The notes beneath the pieces are model-generated. The model was given only the letters and a program-made list of their open reading frames with translations. It was not told the origin of the DNA and did no database searches. A stretch of 39,266 bases of DNA from Bacteroidaceae bacterium (GTDB lineage: Bacteria > Bacteroidota > Bacteroidia > Bacteroidales > Bacteroidaceae), in contig JAFXTO010000013.1 in the NCBI GenBank assembly GCA_017535725.1, forward strand, positions 1 to 39,266, given 5' to 3'. This document shows, piece by piece, positions 10,411-34,127 of the stretch. The stretch's first letter is position 1. Every line of letters starts with the position of its first letter. The position numbers and the translations under genes were made by a program.

Positions 10411-13275
10411 TCAAAGCTGGTGGATGACTTTCAGCAGTTGTTCGCCGAGTCCGATGGTGTAACCTTGCTGGATGAAGACGACACGGTTGAAGGAGTCGCA
10501 GATGAGGAAGATGGGGAGGGAGGAGGAAGGAAGTTGAAGCTGTTCCACGACTTCCTGCTTGATAGTTCCTTGGAGGTCTGTTCCCCAGACAACAGTGGAC
10601 GGCAGCAGGGCTGCTGCCCCAAGACCCCAGAACTCCTTGAAGTTAAAGCGGTTGGCCGACTCTGCATCATCGAAGAGGAGCACCATCTGACGCCCCCAGC
10701 GCTCGAAGTCCTGACGGACGAGGGCTATATCCCGCAGGGCATGGTTCGTGGGTTCCTGGTTGGGAGCGATGAGGCCGAGTACATAGTAGCCGCGACCACA
10801 GGTGGAAAGGAGGCTGGTCGGAGGAAGCGGGCTAGCGGGGGCTACGGCGGGGGAAGAGGGGGATGAAAGGGGGCTCGAGGGGGCTCCGGCAGGGGAGGTG
10901 GAGGGCTCGTCAGCTGGAGCGCGGAAGGACAGAGGTTGATAGAGGTTCTCGGCGTTGAGAGAACCGATGACAGCGACTGCATCGGTCGTGGTACGGAGGA
11001 CGAGAGGCAAGGTGGTCGTCTCGCTTGGGAGAATGGTAAATAGCTGAAGATGAGCGCGGACGCTGCCATCGGCCAAGCGAACGCCCGTTATCAGGCAGTA
11101 GTAGCCGGCATCAAGGGTGACGCCGTTTTGGAATGTATTGGCAAAGGTGGCTTCCTCCGGGTAGGTAAGGAGCTGCAGCTGGTTCTGCTCATCAAGGCGG
11201 GAGAGGGTGAAGTGGGTGTAGTACTTGGCGTCGGGGAGGTGGGGTGTGGGGGTGTAGGTGAGGCGGAGGGTGCCGGAGGGAGAGGGGGGGAGGGAACCCT
11301 CGGGAAAACCCTCGGGCACGGTGGCCACGGAGGAGGAGGAGGAGGCGAGAGGGGAGGTGGAGGGGGCGTCGAAGGTGACGGTGTTCCAAGTGGTGGTGTA
11401 GTACTGGACCTTGCCGTTGATTTCGTTGATACGGGCGGGGATATTGAGGGCGCGACAGGCGGCAACAAAGAAGATATCGCGGCCGAGGGGGTCCGCGGTA
11501 CGGGTGCGATAGACCCCTAAGGGTTGCATACGCAGGTGTTGCGGGTTCTGGTCATCGATGATACGAAGGCTGTCACGGGTCCAGGCGATGAGTGCAAAGA
11601 CATCAGCGATAGCAGGCTGGCCAGCGGAAGCGGAGGCAGAGATAGCGGGCTGGCAATCGGCTGCTGAGTCAGAGATAGCAGGCTGGCCAGGGGAAGCGGA
11701 GTCAGAGATAGCAGGCTGGCCAGGGGAAGCGGAGGCAGAGATAGCAGGCTGGCCAGCGGTTGAGGAGGCGGGAAGGACCTGCGAGAGGGCTTTGCGGAGA
11801 GGTATCTTGTAGGGTGTTAGGCGCTCGCGCTCGATACGGGGTGAGAGGAGGTATCGCAACATTATATCCTGATTATCAGGTGGATTTTGAAAATCTGTTG
11901 TTTCCCGCGAAGTTGCTTTTCGCGAGCCTAGGGACGAAGGAGCCGCAAGCAGGTTGTCGAGGAGCACTGGGAGGGTGATGTCCTGCAGGTCTTTGTCTGG
12001 CAGGATGGAGAGGAGGGGCTCCACCAGGGCGGCACGGCCAAGCAGGGGTGCGGTTTCACGGAAGTCGGCGATGACTGCGTGATTGCCTCGGCTGCGCTGG
12101 TCTGGCATTGTGGCCTCGTAGGCGTGACGGATGCTGTCTTCGAGTGCAAGCCGGCGATCGTTCTCTGCACGCTGTTCAGGAGAGACGATTGGAAGAGAGG
12201 TGCTGACAGGAGGAGGGGTGACGTTGAGAGAAGTTGAAACGTTGAAAGATTGAAACGTTGAAACATTGAAAGGTTGACGGGTGAGCGGGGAGGAAAGGGA
12301 AATGGTGACGAGGGTGTCGGTGGCAAAATGTGCTTCCTGAAAGGCAAAAGTGGTGGGCGTACTCACCCAGATGAGCATATCGCCGAGGCCAGCGGTGAGG
12401 GAGGCACGGCCTTCGGCATCGGTTTGCTTGCGGGCGACGGTGTAGAATTCGGCGTAGTTATAGAGCTTGAACTCTACGGTGGCTTCGGGTACTGGGCGGT
12501 CGAGGCTATCGAGGACGAGGACAGCGAGGCGGCGCGTGGGTGCATAGTTGTTGGTGACATTGATTTCCGTGAGTGCGTGGGCCCGACTGACAACCTCCTC
12601 GGGGCCGTCGTAATTGCCGAAAACCTTGGTGTGCATCAACATACCTCGCGAGGCACTCTCATTGAACCACCCTACATTCAGGACAGGCTCTGGCTCACAG
12701 GCACCCAGAAACCACCATCTGCCATCAGCCCAAGCCTCCACCCAAGCGTGATTATCATCTGTATGAGCCCAACGAGGAGTATAGACCTGACGGGCTGGAA
12801 TGCCGACACTACGGAGGGCGGCAACAAGGAACACAGACTCCTCGCCGCAACGACCGTAGGCCGTCCGGAGGGTGGCCAAGGGGCTGAGCGTTCGCGCATT
12901 AGTAGGGCGATAAGTGACGTGCTCATGACACCAATGATTGACCTCGAGGATGGCTTCCTGCATGGTGAACCCTTCGAGCCGGGGCTTCAACTCGCGGAAG
13001 AAAACAGACCTGCACGTGTCCAAATCCTCGTTGCTGACACGAGGAGGAAGGACAAAGTGGCGGAACTCGCGTTCGGGCACGCTGTTGCCCCAAGGCATCT
13101 CAGCACGGGCCTGCAAGGACAGCCGCACTTGTTCGATATAGTAATCACGAGGGTAGTCGGTGCGGTCGGGAAGCGACAAGTTCTCATACAGGAAATCGAC
13201 GTAGGTGTCAACGGAAGGGGTGTTGCAAGCCGTCAACGCCAAGGCCATAAGCAACGAGAGGAATATCTGTTTCAT
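10411..13275 (-). CDS. Transglutaminase-like lipoprotein with repeat-derived insertions
   Basis: This 954-residue protein begins MKQIFLSLLMALALTAC, a lipobox with Cys17 lipidated. The residues after Cys (NTPSVD) lack the acidic surface signal, so a periplasm-facing lipoprotein is likely. Residues about 110-215 form a transglutaminase-like papain-fold core: GRCGEES holds the nucleophilic Cys, DDNHAWVEAW the His, and the Trp-rich WWFLGACEPEP segment follows. A carboxypeptidase-regulatory-like beta domain comes next (LAVLVLDSLDRPVPEA), and a second large beta-rich region ends the protein. Three linkers are low complexity: NVST-rich near 331-347, five 11-residue GQPAIS units near 502-556, and Ser/Pro/Ala-rich stretches. 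Whether it is protease or transglutaminase cannot be told. An 8-bp array abuts its start codon. Confidence 0.85.
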   Translation of the reverse strand: MKQIFLSLLMALALTACNTPSVDTYVDFLYENLSLPDRTDYPRDYYIEQVRLSLQARAEMPWGNSVPEREFRHFVLPPRVSNEDLDTCRSVFFRELKPRLEGFTMQEAILEVNHWCHEHVTYRPTNARTLSPLATLRTAYGRCGEESVFLVAALRSVGIPARQVYTPRWAHTDDNHAWVEAWADGRWWFLGACEPEPVLNVGWFNESASRGMLMHTKVFGNYDGPEEVVSRAHALTEINVTNNYAPTRRLAVLVLDSLDRPVPEATVEFKLYNYAEFYTVARKQTDAEGRASLTAGLGDMLIWVSTPTTFAFQEAHFATDTLVTISLSSPLTRQPFNVSTFQSFNVSTSLNVTPPPVSTSLPIVSPEQRAENDRRLALEDSIRHAYEATMPDQRSRGNHAVIADFRETAPLLGRAALVEPLLSILPDKDLQDITLPVLLDNLLAAPSSLGSRKATSRETTDFQNPPDNQDIMLRYLLSPRIERERLTPYKIPLRKALSQVLPASSTAGQPAISASASPGQPAISDSASPGQPAISDSAADCQPAISASASAGQPAIADVFALIAWTRDSLRIIDDQNPQHLRMQPLGVYRTRTADPLGRDIFFVAACRALNIPARINEINGKVQYYTTTWNTVTFDAPSTSPLASSSSSVATVPEGFPEGSLPPSPSGTLRLTYTPTPHLPDAKYYTHFTLSRLDEQNQLQLLTYPEEATFANTFQNGVTLDAGYYCLITGVRLADGSVRAHLQLFTILPSETTTLPLVLRTTTDAVAVIGSLNAENLYQPLSFRAPADEPSTSPAGAPSSPLSSPSSPAVAPASPLPPTSLLSTCGRGYYVLGLIAPNQEPTNHALRDIALVRQDFERWGRQMVLLFDDAESANRFNFKEFWGLGAAALLPSTVVWGTDLQGTIKQEVVEQLQLPSSSLPIFLICDSFNRVVFIQQGYTIGLGEQLLKVIHQL
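11608..11772 (-). repeat. Five 33-bp tandem repeats inside the transglutaminase-like gene
   Basis: Units begin at 11608, 11641, 11674, 11707 and 11740, exactly 33 bp apart, each starting GATAGC(A/G)GGCTGGC on the plus strand. They encode 11-residue units of the form GQPAISxSAS plus P, D or A. Since 33 is a multiple of three, copy number can change without a frameshift. Confidence 0.93.
12233..12280 (-). repeat. 8-bp tandem array inside the transglutaminase-like gene
   Basis: Six 8-bp units lie head to tail: GTTGAAAC, GTTGAAAG, ATTGAAAC, GTTGAAAC, ATTGAAAG, GTTGACGG. They have the same length and style as the intergenic arrays in this window. The 48 bp equal 16 codons and encode an FNVST-containing linker (QPFNVST, SFNVST), so the insertion keeps the frame. 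Confidence 0.88.
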
Positions 13276-30299: not shown

Positions 30300-30986
30300 T
30301 TAATCCTTAATTGGATTAATGTGTTTCATCTGACGCATAATCCACGTCTGCCGCTTCAGCATATAAGTCGAAGGATTCTTACTACTGAATTTCAAGGGAT
30401 TAGGGAGTGTGGCGGCGATAAGGGCGCAGTCAGCTCGCGTCAGTTCTGAGGCTGACCGGCCGAAATGAAGTTGTGCCACCGCCTCAGCTCCATAGATACC
30501 GTCGCCCATCTCTATGGAATTCAAGTAAACCTCCATGATGCGTTCCTTGCTCCAGAATAGTTCTATCAAGAGGGTAAAATACGTCTCCAAGCCCTTCCTG
30601 ACCCACGAGGAGGTTGGCCAAAGGAAAACATTCTTGGCCGTCTGCTGACTGATGGTGCTACCGCCGCGCTGCCGCTTGCCAGAACGTCGTTCTTCCCAAG
30701 CCTCGTTGATTGCCTTGAAATCGAAACCATCATGTTCCATAAAGCGCTGATCCTCAGAAGCCATGACTGCAACAGGAAGGTATCGAGACATAGAATCCAT
30801 CGACACCCAATGATGGCGCAGGCGGACATGTTCCCCACGGCTCATCTGCTGTACACTACGGATAAGCATCAAAGGAGTCAGAGGAACGGGCAACCACCTG
30901 TAGGCCACGACAGAAAGGATGGATGTGGCGAAGAAGAGGATGACCGTCCACTGCAATATTTTCTGCAAGCGACGAAGGTACTTCAT
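30300..30986 (-). CDS. mtgA: Monofunctional peptidoglycan transglycosylase (GT51)
   Basis: MtgA polymerises lipid II into glycan strands. The 228-residue protein has one N-terminal membrane anchor (about residues 12-30) and the GT51 motifs in order: VMASEDQRFMEHDGFD with the catalytic Glu78, RGGSTISQQTAKN (GGSTISQQ at 108-115), and KERIMEVYLNSIEMGDGIYG with the second Glu at 152. Length and lack of a penicillin-binding domain fit the monofunctional class. It follows the PqqD-like gene by 7 bp and is the last gene of the rpoD group, so envelope growth is transcriptionally tied to the sigma factor and the kinase/peptidase/PqqD trio. Confidence 0.95.
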   Translation of the reverse strand: MKYLRRLQKILQWTVILFFATSILSVVAYRWLPVPLTPLMLIRSVQQMSRGEHVRLRHHWVSMDSMSRYLPVAVMASEDQRFMEHDGFDFKAINEAWEERRSGKRQRGGSTISQQTAKNVFLWPTSSWVRKGLETYFTLLIELFWSKERIMEVYLNSIEMGDGIYGAEAVAQLHFGRSASELTRADCALIAATLPNPLKFSSKNPSTYMLKRQTWIMRQMKHINPIKD

Positions 30987-30993
30987 TCAAAAC

Positions 30994-31260
30994 TTACTCT
31001 ACCAGACCTGCCGACTGCCATTCCCGCAGGATTTTGGAAGCATCTTGCTGAGCAAGCTCTTCCGACACCTCATACTCTTGCTGGAGCAGACGAGCCAGTT
31101 CCTGCTCATCGAAGTCACGCCCCTCGACCGAGGACCACAAGTAGGCTGCACTCTCGTTCAAGGATATCAGTTTGGAAAAATCCATATTTGCCCGTCCGTG
31201 GGCCACTACGACCGTCACACCACAAATGGTCAGTAGTTCAAAACCGTCTTTGATTCTCAT
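30994..31260 (-). CDS. PqqD-like (RiPP recognition element-type) protein
   Basis: This 88-residue protein matches the PqqD family: an N-terminal beta region (GFELLTICGVTVVVAHGR), the typical ISLNESAAYLWSSVEG motif, then two helices (DEQELARLLQQEYEVSEELAQQDASKILREWQSAGLVE). PqqD-like domains bind the leader of precursor peptides and present them to modifying enzymes (RiPP recognition element). Here the start overlaps the stop of the S24/S26 peptidase gene in an ATGA, so the two are translationally coupled. No precursor peptide or radical SAM enzyme is visible nearby. The family is well known in Bacteroidota, often beside S24/S26 peptidases, but its target there is not established. Confidence 0.9.
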   Translation of the reverse strand: MRIKDGFELLTICGVTVVVAHGRANMDFSKLISLNESAAYLWSSVEGRDFDEQELARLLQQEYEVSEELAQQDASKILREWQSAGLVE

Positions 31261-31802
31261 ATCGTTTGTCTATAGATAAAGAGGTACAGGCGCCGCATCC
31301 AAACGGGCAAATGTACCCATCGTTTAATCTTTCTTATCAGTTTTGGGTCATCGGCCAGCATAACATGTCCACCAGGTCGGATGTACTTGGTTACCACCGC
31401 CCTCACATCCGCCAGCGTGCAATGTTCCACACCCTGCAGATTACCATCACCCCTCAGAGTCAGCTCATTGCCATTCCGTGCGATGATACGATGAAGGACA
31501 AAATGACCGGGAGCATACTCAGCGAGCACCGCATCTCCAACCTGCACGTCAGTGCATGGCGAAAGTTCCACCTTGTCCCGTAAGTGTTCGAGGAAGGGGC
31601 GCATACTGTACCCTTTGACCCAGATAATAGCCGCTTCTCCCTTGGCCACGTAACTGCATACGACAGGCAGGAAGGCTTCGTTCGGCAGCTCCCTGCGCAA
31701 CAGGGTATCAGCTTCAGGGTCGGCATACTTCCTGCGATTAGCACGTCGCAAGGGGGTAGCCAACCAATAGAAGACTCGCGTTATGAATGCTTTCAAAGCC
31801 AT
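31257..31802 (-). CDS. S24/S26 family peptidase with ER-type Ser/His/Asp motifs
   Basis: This 181-residue protein has a signal-peptidase-like core: IIWVKGYSMRPFL with nucleophile Ser66, GDAVLAEY, GHFVLHRIIA with His104, and LTLRGDGN with Asp119. Use of His instead of Lys as general base is typical of ER/archaeal and SipW-type signal peptidases, unlike LepB. No strong membrane anchor is visible; the N-terminus (MALKAFITRVFYWLATPLRRA) is amphipathic and basic and could lie on the membrane. Its ORF ends in an ATGA overlap with the PqqD-like gene. The association with a kinase and PqqD suggests cleavage of a modified peptide leader rather than general secretion, which is inference. Confidence 0.87.
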   Translation of the reverse strand: MALKAFITRVFYWLATPLRRANRRKYADPEADTLLRRELPNEAFLPVVCSYVAKGEAAIIWVKGYSMRPFLEHLRDKVELSPCTDVQVGDAVLAEYAPGHFVLHRIIARNGNELTLRGDGNLQGVEHCTLADVRAVVTKYIRPGGHVMLADDPKLIRKIKRWVHLPVWMRRLYLFIYRQTI

Positions 31803-31863
31803 TTAATCCTCAAAAAAATGGGACACAAAAAAAACTACACACTACACACCTAAACTTCCAACG

Positions 31864-32754
31864 TTAAACAACAGACACCGCTTCGTAGCAGACACGAGCC
31901 GCTTCCTCGTCCGGGCGGCAACCTAACCAATAGATAGGTGTAAGTTCCAGAATTCGGGAAAGGCACTTACAAATACCGCGATAGACACGGCTATCCCACT
32001 TCATGGAGCTGACAGCAGGAAGCAGGGCGGCAAATGCCTCGAGCACTTCCATCCGACGAATGGTGTTTTCCGGCTTTTGTTCTATGCGGGTAATGGCACC
32101 GACGGGTGCCCAGATATTACGGTAGCAAGGTGTCTTGCCGCTCCAAGGCGAACCATAGATGCGTGTTTCCCCGTCAACAATGCGAACCACGGGATTATCA
32201 TCATTCATCAGGTCACTACCTGGAATATATTGATACCACAGATGAGTATGTGTGCTCTTACCGGTTCCGCTGGGAGCTGTGAAGAGGTAGCCATAGCCGC
32301 CGTTGCGGATGACTGAGGCATGAACGAGTAGCGTGTCCAACTCGGCTGCAGCAAAGGCGTATGCCATCATCAGGGCATTGTTCAGCCCGAACTGGTGCTG
32401 GCGAAGGGACTCACCCGTCAGGACGGCATGACACTCGCGGAAGTCAGCCGAAGCCATCAGACAACAGCTCAGATGACCGCCGTCACATGCAGGCAGGCTG
32501 ATTTCAAAGCCATAGCTGCCATTGGCAGAGCGATAGACCCCGTGATTGGCACCACCACAGTCGAACTGACCTATTTCATCCATGCCACGGAAGTCAGGAG
32601 CAGAGCCCTCTGTGACCTCCATGGAAAAAAGGACATCGCCCTCATCCTCTGCCCGAAACGGCGAGAAAGAGGGGATGACATCCTCTGCCCGAAGGGACTG
32701 AGGCAGGATTATGCGGAAGCGATGCAGGGCAACCTGATAGGATTGGACACTCAT
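31864..32754 (-). CDS. HPr kinase C-terminal-like P-loop kinase
   Basis: This 296-residue soluble protein has an HprK-like kinase core in its second half: DTLLVHASVI (His145), a P-loop TAPSGTGKSTHT (GTGKST at 163-168), DLMNDDNPVV (Asp185-Asp186, Mg2+/catalytic region) and YGSPWSGKTP. HprK phosphorylates a Ser of HPr, but short relatives of this type are found in RiPP clusters, where lasso-peptide kinases phosphorylate the C-terminal Ser. The N-terminal 130 residues are not recognised. No ptsH gene is nearby. Its start overlaps the preceding gene by ATGA. The 61-bp gap before the peptidase gene (31803-31863) is AT-rich and shows no precursor peptide. Confidence 0.85.
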   Translation of the reverse strand: MSVQSYQVALHRFRIILPQSLRAEDVIPSFSPFRAEDEGDVLFSMEVTEGSAPDFRGMDEIGQFDCGGANHGVYRSANGSYGFEISLPACDGGHLSCCLMASADFRECHAVLTGESLRQHQFGLNNALMMAYAFAAAELDTLLVHASVIRNGGYGYLFTAPSGTGKSTHTHLWYQYIPGSDLMNDDNPVVRIVDGETRIYGSPWSGKTPCYRNIWAPVGAITRIEQKPENTIRRMEVLEAFAALLPAVSSMKWDSRVYRGICKCLSRILELTPIYWLGCRPDEEAARVCYEAVSVV

Positions 32755-33263
32755 GATTTCTTGTCTTTCCTTTTACTTTTCCTGCCGTATTCTGGCGGTG
32801 CAGGCTTCGAAGCGGGCTCTTCAGATGGTACAATCTCGTCACCAATCGTGATTTCCCGATATTCCTCAGCCTTAAAGGCAAACTCACCCTCTGGGATAAT
32901 CATGTATCGCAAGTGGTTGACTCCCTCATAGCGTTTCTTTATTTTTTTCCACGTACGCTGCAGTTTGCGCAGGCTCGTGGAAAAGAAAACCGTGCAGATG
33001 GCATTGTCATAAGCCTTGTAATTTCCCATGAAATCCTGCAACTGCATACTATAGAGAGACCTGTCAACCAAAAACTTATGTTTAGGTTCTATCCAAGCGT
33101 CATCCAGTTGTTGGATGTTGGTTTGGCATGCAACGGAATCCGTGAACGAGGCACCAAAACCGAAGATATAAATCTTGCACATCTCAGGTTTCTTCTGAGC
33201 CTCAGCTTCCATGAAGCCGGCACAGAAGAAAGAGATGAGTAGCAGGGTGATGATTTTTCTCAT
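32751..33263 (-). CDS. Secreted hypothetical protein of the rpoD operon
   Basis: This 170-residue protein has a signal peptide (MRKIITLLLISFFCAGFMEAEAQ) and a small alpha/beta body: MCKIYIFGFGASFTDSVACQT, then a region with AICTVFFSTSLRKLQRTWKKIKKRYEGVNHLRYMIIPEGEF and a strongly basic, disordered tail (GRKSKRKDKKS). I do not recognise a named domain. It lies 3 bp after rpoD and overlaps the kinase gene by ATGA, which makes it the link between the sigma factor and the kinase/peptidase/PqqD trio. It is exported, so it could be a target or partner of that trio, but nothing in the sequence proves it. Confidence 0.8.
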   Translation of the reverse strand: MRKIITLLLISFFCAGFMEAEAQKKPEMCKIYIFGFGASFTDSVACQTNIQQLDDAWIEPKHKFLVDRSLYSMQLQDFMGNYKAYDNAICTVFFSTSLRKLQRTWKKIKKRYEGVNHLRYMIIPEGEFAFKAEEYREITIGDEIVPSEEPASKPAPPEYGRKSKRKDKKS

Positions 33264-33266
33264 TGC

Positions 33267-34127
33267 TTATCCCAAGTAAGGTTTCAGGAGTTTGCTCTTG
33301 GAGTTGTTGCGCAGGCGGCGGATGGCCTTCTCCTTGATTTGACGAACACGTTCGCGGGTGAGGTTGAAACGGTCGCCGATTTCCTCCAAGGTCATTTCCT
33401 GATGATTGATGCCAAAGAACATCTCCACAATCTGCTTCTCGCGCTCGCTGAGGGTACTCAGTGCGCGTTCGATTTCGCGGCTCAGACTCTCGTTGACCAG
33501 ACTCCTGTCGGCCATGGGACTGTCATCGTTGACAATGACGTCGAGGAGGGTGTTGTCCTCACCTTCGACGAAGGGAGCATCCACCGAGATGTGACGTCCG
33601 CTCACCTTCAGGGTATCGCTGATTTTATCAACGGGAATATCCAGTTCCTCTGCCAGTTCATCAGGACTGGGCTTGCGCTCGTTCTCCTGCTCGAACTTGG
33701 AGTAGGCCTTGCTAATCTTGTTCAACGAACCCACCTGATTCAACGGCAGACGCACGATACGGCTCTGCTCGGCCAATGCCTGCAGGATGCTCTGACGAAT
33801 CCACCACACAGCGTAGGAGATGAACTTGAAGCCGCGTGTCTCGTCGAACTTCTCGGCAGCCTTGATGAGTCCGAGGTTTCCCTCATTGATGAGGTCGGGC
33901 AGCGAGAGTCCCTGGTTCTGGTACTGCTTGGCGACACTGACCACAAAGCGCAGGTTGGCGCGTGTCAGCTTCTCCAATGCGGCACGATCGCCCTTGCGAA
34001 TACGCTGGGCCAGTTCCACCTCTTCCTCCACGGTAATCAGGTCTTCGCGGCCGATTTCCTGAAGGTATTTGTCGAGGGAAGCACTCTCACGATTGGTGAT
34101 ACTTTTGGTAATCTTTAATTGTCTCAT
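33267..34127 (-). CDS. rpoD: Primary sigma factor RpoD of Bacteroidota type
   Basis: RpoD directs RNA polymerase to housekeeping promoters, in this phylum to TTTG/TAnnTTTG. The 286-residue protein has region 1.2 ([27 protein letters not shown]), region 2 ([37 protein letters not shown] and [15 protein letters not shown]), region 3 ([13 protein letters not shown]) and region 4 with the helix-turn-helix [20 protein letters not shown]. The missing region 1.1 and short length are normal for Bacteroidota. It has its own TATCTTTG box about 25 bp upstream of the ATG and is the first gene of an operon ending in mtgA. Confidence 0.97.

Follow-up and report, generated by a model that had tools for sequence, protein, structure and literature searches.

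A kinase, a peptidase and a PqqD-family protein beside rpoD in Bacteroidaceae: a probable maturation system for scattered YxxP peptides

What do three genes act on that resemble the machinery of ribosomally synthesised and post-translationally modified peptides (RiPPs), and that stand between rpoD and mtgA with no precursor in view? The question is raised by a stretch of 39,266 bp from a Bacteroidaceae bacterium (contig JAFXTO010000013.1 of assembly GCA_017535725.1, positions 1 to 39,266), hereafter the window, whose minus strand carries the whole run of rpoD, a gene for an exported protein, a kinase gene, a peptidase gene, a PqqD-family gene and mtgA. We consider it likely that the kinase, the peptidase and the PqqD protein form the maturation machine of a multi-copy family of short peptides, termed here YxxP peptides, which are coded at scattered sites. 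The leader and tail pattern of these peptides, their co-occurrence and linkage with the kinase, and the nature of their neighbours constitute sequence evidence, from which we infer the chemistry and the purpose. The features of the cassette itself are the following.

31864-32754, minus strand: HprK/PEPCK-fold kinase, 296 residues (profile matches, alignment, AlphaFold model with a mean predicted local distance difference test score, pLDDT, of 93.2, Foldseek matches to PEPCK and HprK)
32251-32277, minus strand: Walker A motif APSGTGKST of the kinase
32197-32205, minus strand: NDD motif of the kinase
32134-32154, minus strand: GSPWSGK motif of the kinase
31257-31802, minus strand: S26/S24-like serine peptidase, 181 residues, proposed leader peptidase (TIGR02228 below cut-off, AlphaFold model with a mean pLDDT of 92.3, Foldseek matches)
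31605-31607, minus strand: Ser66 of the peptidase
31491-31493, minus strand: His104 of the peptidase
31446-31448, minus strand: Asp119 of the peptidase
30994-31260, minus strand: PqqD-family protein, predicted to bind leaders, 88 residues (PF05402)

The placing of these three genes between rpoD and mtgA, made in an original prediction from the letters alone, is confirmed by the coordinates and by family and fold matches. The PqqD protein matches PF05402 above the Pfam cut-off (E 7.8e-16). The peptidase matches TIGR02228, the model of archaeal or endoplasmic reticulum (ER)-type signal peptidases, at E 1.5e-4 and with a score of 21.7 against a cut-off of 51.85, and the kinase matches TIGR04352 and TIGR04249 at E 1.4e-4, below their cut-offs. 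Ser66, His104 and Asp119, proposed earlier as the active site of the peptidase, are invariant across the 130 distinct peptidases from the loci that were fetched, and the modelled fold is consistent with that role. His145, Gly163, Gly165, Lys166, Asn184, Asp185 and Asp186 of the kinase are likewise kept in 144 of 144; both counts derive from 137 peptidases and 154 kinases so labelled, length outliers and identical copies being excluded. The peptidase model shows an N-terminal helix (residues 2-25) and two C-terminal helices, and Foldseek ranks LexA, lambda repressor and type I signal peptidases highest for it, just one of them at E<=0.001. Foldseek places the kinase model with PEPCK and HprK (62 matches at E<=0.001), and a P-loop, a paired Asp and the HprK/PEPCK fold are all present according to alignment, model and Foldseek; a sequence search of solved structures returned mostly P-loop proteins, HprK and PEPCK appearing there as weak matches. 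Fold and residue conservation together suggest a fitting active-site geometry in both the kinase and the peptidase. The alignments comprised 21 rows for the kinase, 30 of 89 non-redundant sequences for the peptidase, 24 of 72 for PqqD and 16 for the exported protein.

Co-occurrence of the three genes outside this strain had been named as a check, and it is borne out. The kinase is found in 70 of the 73 genomes of the window's genus, the window's own included, most assemblies being incomplete. Order and strand of kinase, peptidase and PqqD are kept in 19 of 20 same-genus loci, the exception being L052; the exported protein lies upstream in 19 of the 20 by tblastn, with the profile finding it in the genome of the twentieth too, and rpoD is within the locus in 15. 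The place and strand of mtgA vary among these loci, so that it is not a constant neighbour. Co-location counts here rest on tblastn or profile matches. A further 80 named loci, the top-ranking ones among at least 594 matches and thus near relatives, come from Prevotella, Segatella, Hoylesella, Palleniella, a Bacteroides and many metagenome assemblies. By tblastn, the peptidase follows the kinase in 80 of these 80 loci and PqqD does so in 76, the four misses being L147, where PqqD lies upstream of the kinase, L124 and L137, where the contig ends, and L119, with none in its 6.3 kb; the exported protein precedes the kinase in 71, and 45 of the loci have rpoD at a distance of at most 4 kb. In other Bacteroidales, the three cassette genes often have an ATP-binding cassette (ABC) exporter and a PF14907 nucleotidyltransferase beside them, in an order that varies. 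These comparisons support a conserved, co-occurring set whose sequences point to the RiPP-maturation type.

Exporter-bearing cassettes of this kind are accompanied by open reading frames (ORFs) of 33-74 residues which share a leader, KKxYxxPxxEVxxVxxExx[IF]AxS, followed by a variable tail that often ends like WDDDW. A shared small conserved ORF near the orthologues had been suggested as something to look for, and this YxxP family is what the search yielded; the accompanying idea of a substrate coded elsewhere is now strongly supported, the candidates lying at scattered sites. A first regular expression gave 193 matches, mostly noise, and was abandoned. In a profile search, 16 of 2868 small ORFs matched at E<0.01 vs none among shuffled ORFs, 12 of the 16 having built the profile and a thirteenth being identical to one of those. 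From 90 profile matches, 65 distinct peptides were retained, each required to hold [YF]xxP, so that the near-complete Tyr and Pro columns arise partly by construction; not selected by this filter are Ala at +17 from the Tyr (50 of 65) and Ser at +19 (55 of 65), beyond which there is little conservation. Trp occurs among the last 14 residues in 39 of the 65. None of ten YxxP peptides tested gave a Pfam or NCBIfam model above cut-off. In the window's genome, a first peptide profile hit 11 places, all of which read as YxxP peptides with ends such as NVWDDDWSN and VNWDDDWNK, and a second profile gave 14 matches at E<=0.01, two of which (on contigs C54 and C33) were not read. The number of matches per genome ranges from 1 to 24. 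With regard to general features of RiPPs, a short precursor with conserved leader and variable core is thus present, as is a PqqD protein of the leader-recognition type, its binding being predicted.

The association of peptides with the kinase was counted across 199 genomes of the window's family. Both were found in 146, the kinase only in 17, peptides only in 3 and neither in 33 (Fisher 1e-21), or 146/10/3/40 with the kinase required at E<1e-60 (Fisher 6e-29); PqqD was found in 161. The 36 kinase-free genomes also indicate how often the peptide model may match falsely: three of them have matches. In the same order of counts, genus g49 gives 6/2/0/20 (p 7e-5), genus g50 15/1/1/9 (p 3e-5) and the rest of the family 125/7/2/11 (p 2e-10); when genomes that had supplied the model are dropped, g49 gives 3/2/0/20 (p 0.004) and g50 12/1/1/9 (p 1e-4). 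This within-genus co-occurrence is the safest part of the association evidence. A sample of 295 genomes of the order, minus the family, gives 10/6/6/269 at kinase E<1e-60 (p 6e-11), the ten spanning nine families, and 13/69/3/206 with a loose kinase threshold (p 9e-6).

Close linkage is seen as well. A distance of 38 bp separates a peptide gene from the kinase in L064, a locus from another family. Nine listed matches to the peptide model fall within about 30 kb of the kinase in G465, and in G516, G532 and G422 the sole peptide match lies about 7 kb away from it, the joint chance of these three linkages being about 2e-8 if independent, with the three genomes sharing one genus. A precursor near the modifying genes is found in several exporter-type loci and not in the window. 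There, the absence of precursor, radical S-adenosylmethionine (SAM) and cyclase genes reported earlier holds: a domain scan of 28 window proteins (the window has 43 ORFs of at least 150 residues, many antisense) listed neither a radical SAM nor a lasso cyclase nor a B2-type domain, no YxxP peptide lies inside the window, and the best match to the peptide model has an E of 2.1.

Where, then, do the peptides lie? Of the 65, 48 fall in loci long enough (4 kb or more) to show their surroundings, and 42 of these 48 have, on the same strand and within 250 bp, an ORF of at least 250 residues. By a crude rule with a looser threshold for an export signal or lipobox, 39 of the 42 adjacent ORFs pass, at least two of them (L243, L258) looking false; by a stricter single rule, 19 of 22 adjacent ORFs pass, the background rates being 74 of 158 for rpoD loci and 45 of 84 for peptide loci. 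In L055 the neighbour is a radical SAM gene, and in L064 it is the kinase itself. In the window's genome, the neighbours include a C10 protease with a Spi propeptide and a BspA-type leucine-rich protein. The product may act on the outside of the cell, together with the surface proteins whose genes adjoin those of the peptides; an action on the envelope, as the original prediction had it, receives in this way indirect support.

The remainder of the machine appears to be split in the window's genome. One PF14907 nucleotidyltransferase (contig C32, E 1.6e-29) and an ABC exporter closely resembling those of the cassettes (C24, E 1.2e-74) are present on contigs other than that of the cassette, which indicates that all five kinds of part exist there, unlinked. 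As to a second PqqD gene, a candidate on C59 was rejected at 17.3 bits, below cut-off and overlapping a gene that by eye looks like an HU-type DNA-binding protein, and another on C2, matching at E 0.62 only, was not read.

The following division of tasks can be proposed. The PqqD protein would bind and present the strand-like leader of a YxxP peptide, and the HprK-fold kinase would phosphorylate a side chain in its tail. Signal peptidases follow a -3/-1 rule at their cleavage site, and the A-x-S motif fits this rule; the S26-like peptidase may cut the leader after it. The PF14907 nucleotidyltransferase might, by analogy with pseudomycoidin, add a sugar to the phosphate, and the cassette-type ABC exporter would release the product. 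In the pseudomycoidin pathway, the nucleotidyltransferase adds a hexose to the phosphate, according to PMC8498205.

A number of observations weigh against this proposal. Seventeen of the 163 kinase-bearing family genomes have no detected peptide, 7 of these 17 having kinase matches weaker than 1e-60, and three kinase-free genomes have peptides, namely G411 (8), G421 (1) and G442 (1), all three without a PqqD match at E<=1e-6. In the order sample, peptide-bearing genomes without kinase number 3 (loose threshold) or 6 (strict). The genomes are related and the Fisher test ignores kinship, so that the p-values, taken at face value, come out too low. As the sequences behind it came from the vicinity of kinases and from the window's genome, the peptide model may miss diverged members. 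In the window's genome, the peptides lie apart from the cassette. The terminal Ser that lasso kinases modify is absent from all 65 peptides, and the tie between A-x-S and the S26-like peptidase is one we infer by analogy.

The genes flanking the cassette have to be considered before other explanations are weighed.

33267-34127, minus strand: rpoD, which the cassette adjoins in the window
32751-33263, minus strand: exported protein of 170 residues, a neighbour of rpoD throughout the family and outside the cassette
30300-30986, minus strand: mtgA, monofunctional transglycosylase, 7 bp downstream of PqqD and outside the system

From rpoD to mtgA the junctions are 3 bp, a 4-bp ATGA overlap, 61 bp between kinase and peptidase, a second 4-bp ATGA overlap and 7 bp; tight junctions of 3-7 bp or ATGA overlap, as claimed earlier, are there, and the 61-bp gap had been left out. 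The PqqD gene lies just beyond the range 31257..33263 first given for the system. Promoter- and terminator-like patterns around the operon are no commoner than in shuffled sequences.

The exported protein, at first described as leading the set, does not belong to it. No model matched it in Pfam and NCBIfam scans, and its profile is found in 199 of 199 family genomes vs 163 for the kinase; in the wider order sample, 4 of 295 genomes match, all four of the window's family. The 3.4-kb loci L076 and L077 contain no kinase; there, the exported protein comes between rpoD upstream and a clostripain-type gene downstream. A hand count of genomes whose rows showed both proteins places kinase and exported protein within 5 kb in 0 of 18 genomes of g49/g50 vs 33 of 36 of g187/g198, and a 16-row alignment of the protein reveals no conserved tail. 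A tree of 88 kinases groups the 44 that are linked to the exported protein in a single supported clade (97/97), which has 50 rows; the linkage label needs 4 changes, and the starred branches force at least 2, so that one gain with later losses is possible and a single clean origin is not demonstrated. Eight loci have a clostripain-like gene between the exported protein and the kinase. PF03415 genes were noted behind the exported protein at L110:6662-7978, L123:6670-7974 and L077:251-1471, with or without a kinase cassette, and a clostripain-family protein may be its older partner.

Could this adjoining protein nonetheless be the substrate, modified by kinase and PqqD before export and trimmed by the peptidase? 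Its start/stop overlap with the kinase gene in the window and its position upstream of the kinase in most named loci would fit. However, its presence in every family genome, its occurrence after rpoD with no kinase beside it, the absence of linkage in g49/g50 and the unconserved tail make this very unlikely, and distribution and tail together led us to reject it as substrate candidate. A less improbable explanation, still unlikely in our judgement, is that peptides and cassette share lineages or regulation and are not substrate and enzymes, the peptides for instance serving surface proteins while the cassette acts elsewhere. It draws on the large same-strand ORFs beside the placed peptide genes and on the missing peptide-cassette linkage in the window's genome, but kinase and peptides remain associated within each of two genera and across nine families other than this one, linkage is close where the exporter is retained, and the pattern of leader and variable tail is combined with enzymes of RiPP type.

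That the genes represent a lasso-peptide pathway, decayed or with its cyclase and B2 protease coded elsewhere, we regard as highly improbable. Lasso clusters do contain a B1-like PqqD, an HPr-kinase homologue, a nucleotidyltransferase and a transporter, as described in PMC8498205. However, no lasso cyclase or B2-type domain was found among the scanned proteins of the window and of cassette neighbourhoods, the rest of the genome not having been searched, and the YxxP tails lack a terminal Ser. More precisely, no Asn-synthase-like cyclase is among the 28 window proteins scanned (the whole genome was not searched), and no transglutaminase-like B2 protease is in the operon; the only transglutaminase-core match in the window, PF01841, lies near the N-terminus of a 954-residue protein (10411-13275) that is some 18 kb away from the cassette. 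A housekeeping role, with an HPr-type carbon-regulation kinase and a signal peptidase meeting by chance near rpoD, agrees with the PEPCK/HprK and LexA/signal peptidase folds and with the core-gene location, yet it is barely credible given that kinase, peptidase and PqqD stay together elsewhere with ABC and nucleotidyltransferase genes.

Maturation of YxxP peptides thus remains the explanation that we favour, and it can be set against known systems. We take the lasso N proteins to be members of PF14907. Lasso tailoring of the paeninodin and pseudomycoidin type (B1/PqqD, K, N and D) likewise groups a PqqD protein, an HprK-fold kinase, a nucleotidyltransferase and an ABC exporter around short peptides (PMC8498205), whereas here neither a cyclase nor a B2 protease was seen among the proteins scanned, an S26-like Ser-His-Asp peptidase is present instead, the tails have no terminal Ser, and the precursors in the window's genome are many and unlinked. 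The cassette resembles lasso tailoring minus the lasso, and by the tests run it is not a member of the lasso family. The HPr-rel-A system (TIGR04352 kinase, TIGR04353 PqqD) and ScmC of SynChlorMet (TIGR04249) show a related pairing of kinase and PqqD, but the scores here, 21.1 of 200, 18.2 of 35 and 21.3 of 125 bits, are far below the curated cut-offs. With S26B (archaeal/ER-type) signal peptidases, the peptidase shares the invariant Ser, His and Asp and the Foldseek matches to type I signal peptidases, whereas its TIGR02228 score falls short and it is tied to PqqD and a kinase. The GG-leader RiPPs of Bacteroidales (TIGR04149 type) have short precursors, a conserved leader, ABC export and the bacterial order in common with the present system, as described in PMC10352776 and PMC8939145; they carry a GG motif and C39 exporters, whereas the leader here is of YxxP/AxS type and no C39 domain was found in any of the six scanned exporters, of which five lie beside cassettes and the sixth belongs to the window's genome. 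A rumen survey counts 153 clusters of the RiPP recognition element (RRE) class (PMC13289728), and RRE-based mining might flag such PqqD genes. In the open-licence literature, we recognised no paper that describes the cassette with these peptides or names its precursors.

Individual loci deserve a separate mention. In the window's genus, L054 (G048:C7) is a second rpoD-kinase locus whose RpoD is only 76% identical; it may stem from contamination or represent an additional sigma operon. L055:46-3924 is a row comprising a YxxP peptide with a Cys-rich tail, a PF04055 radical SAM protein, two HprK-like kinases and two PqqD proteins, possibly a thioether-forming variant. In L062 (8833-9687), a papain-type C1 peptidase (PF03051/PF00112) comes after the kinase and the S26-like peptidase of an exporter-type cassette. 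At L244:131-3767 (contig C6 of the window's genome), two YxxP peptides flank the C10 protease with a Spi propeptide, with a similar-looking pairing in L252. Finally, L249 and L250 of G465 contain repeated units of a YxxP peptide and a lipoprotein of about 400 to 1100 residues around the kinase cassette, as if duplicated.

Relatives in Prevotella and Bacteroides are abundant in the gut and the rumen. For these bacteria, a broader picture can be drawn, whose chances we judge to be about even: a core-genome system, in Prevotella-like bacteria and further Bacteroidales, would produce a new class of mini-peptides, leader-cut and phosphorylated, perhaps phosphoglycosylated, without a cyclase, up to about two dozen per genome and most of them coded beside a different large exported protein, so that one machine would equip many surface proteins with a matured peptide partner. 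The analysis turns an orphan three-gene set into an enzyme-substrate hypothesis and points to a peptide family of which ten members, scanned with Pfam and NCBIfam, fitted no model above cut-off. If true, this would account for the failed search for a precursor beside the enzymes in the window and would add a cyclase-free, kinase-based branch to RiPP-like peptide maturation; it would also suggest that many surface adhesins, proteases and lipoproteins are paired with a modified peptide partner.

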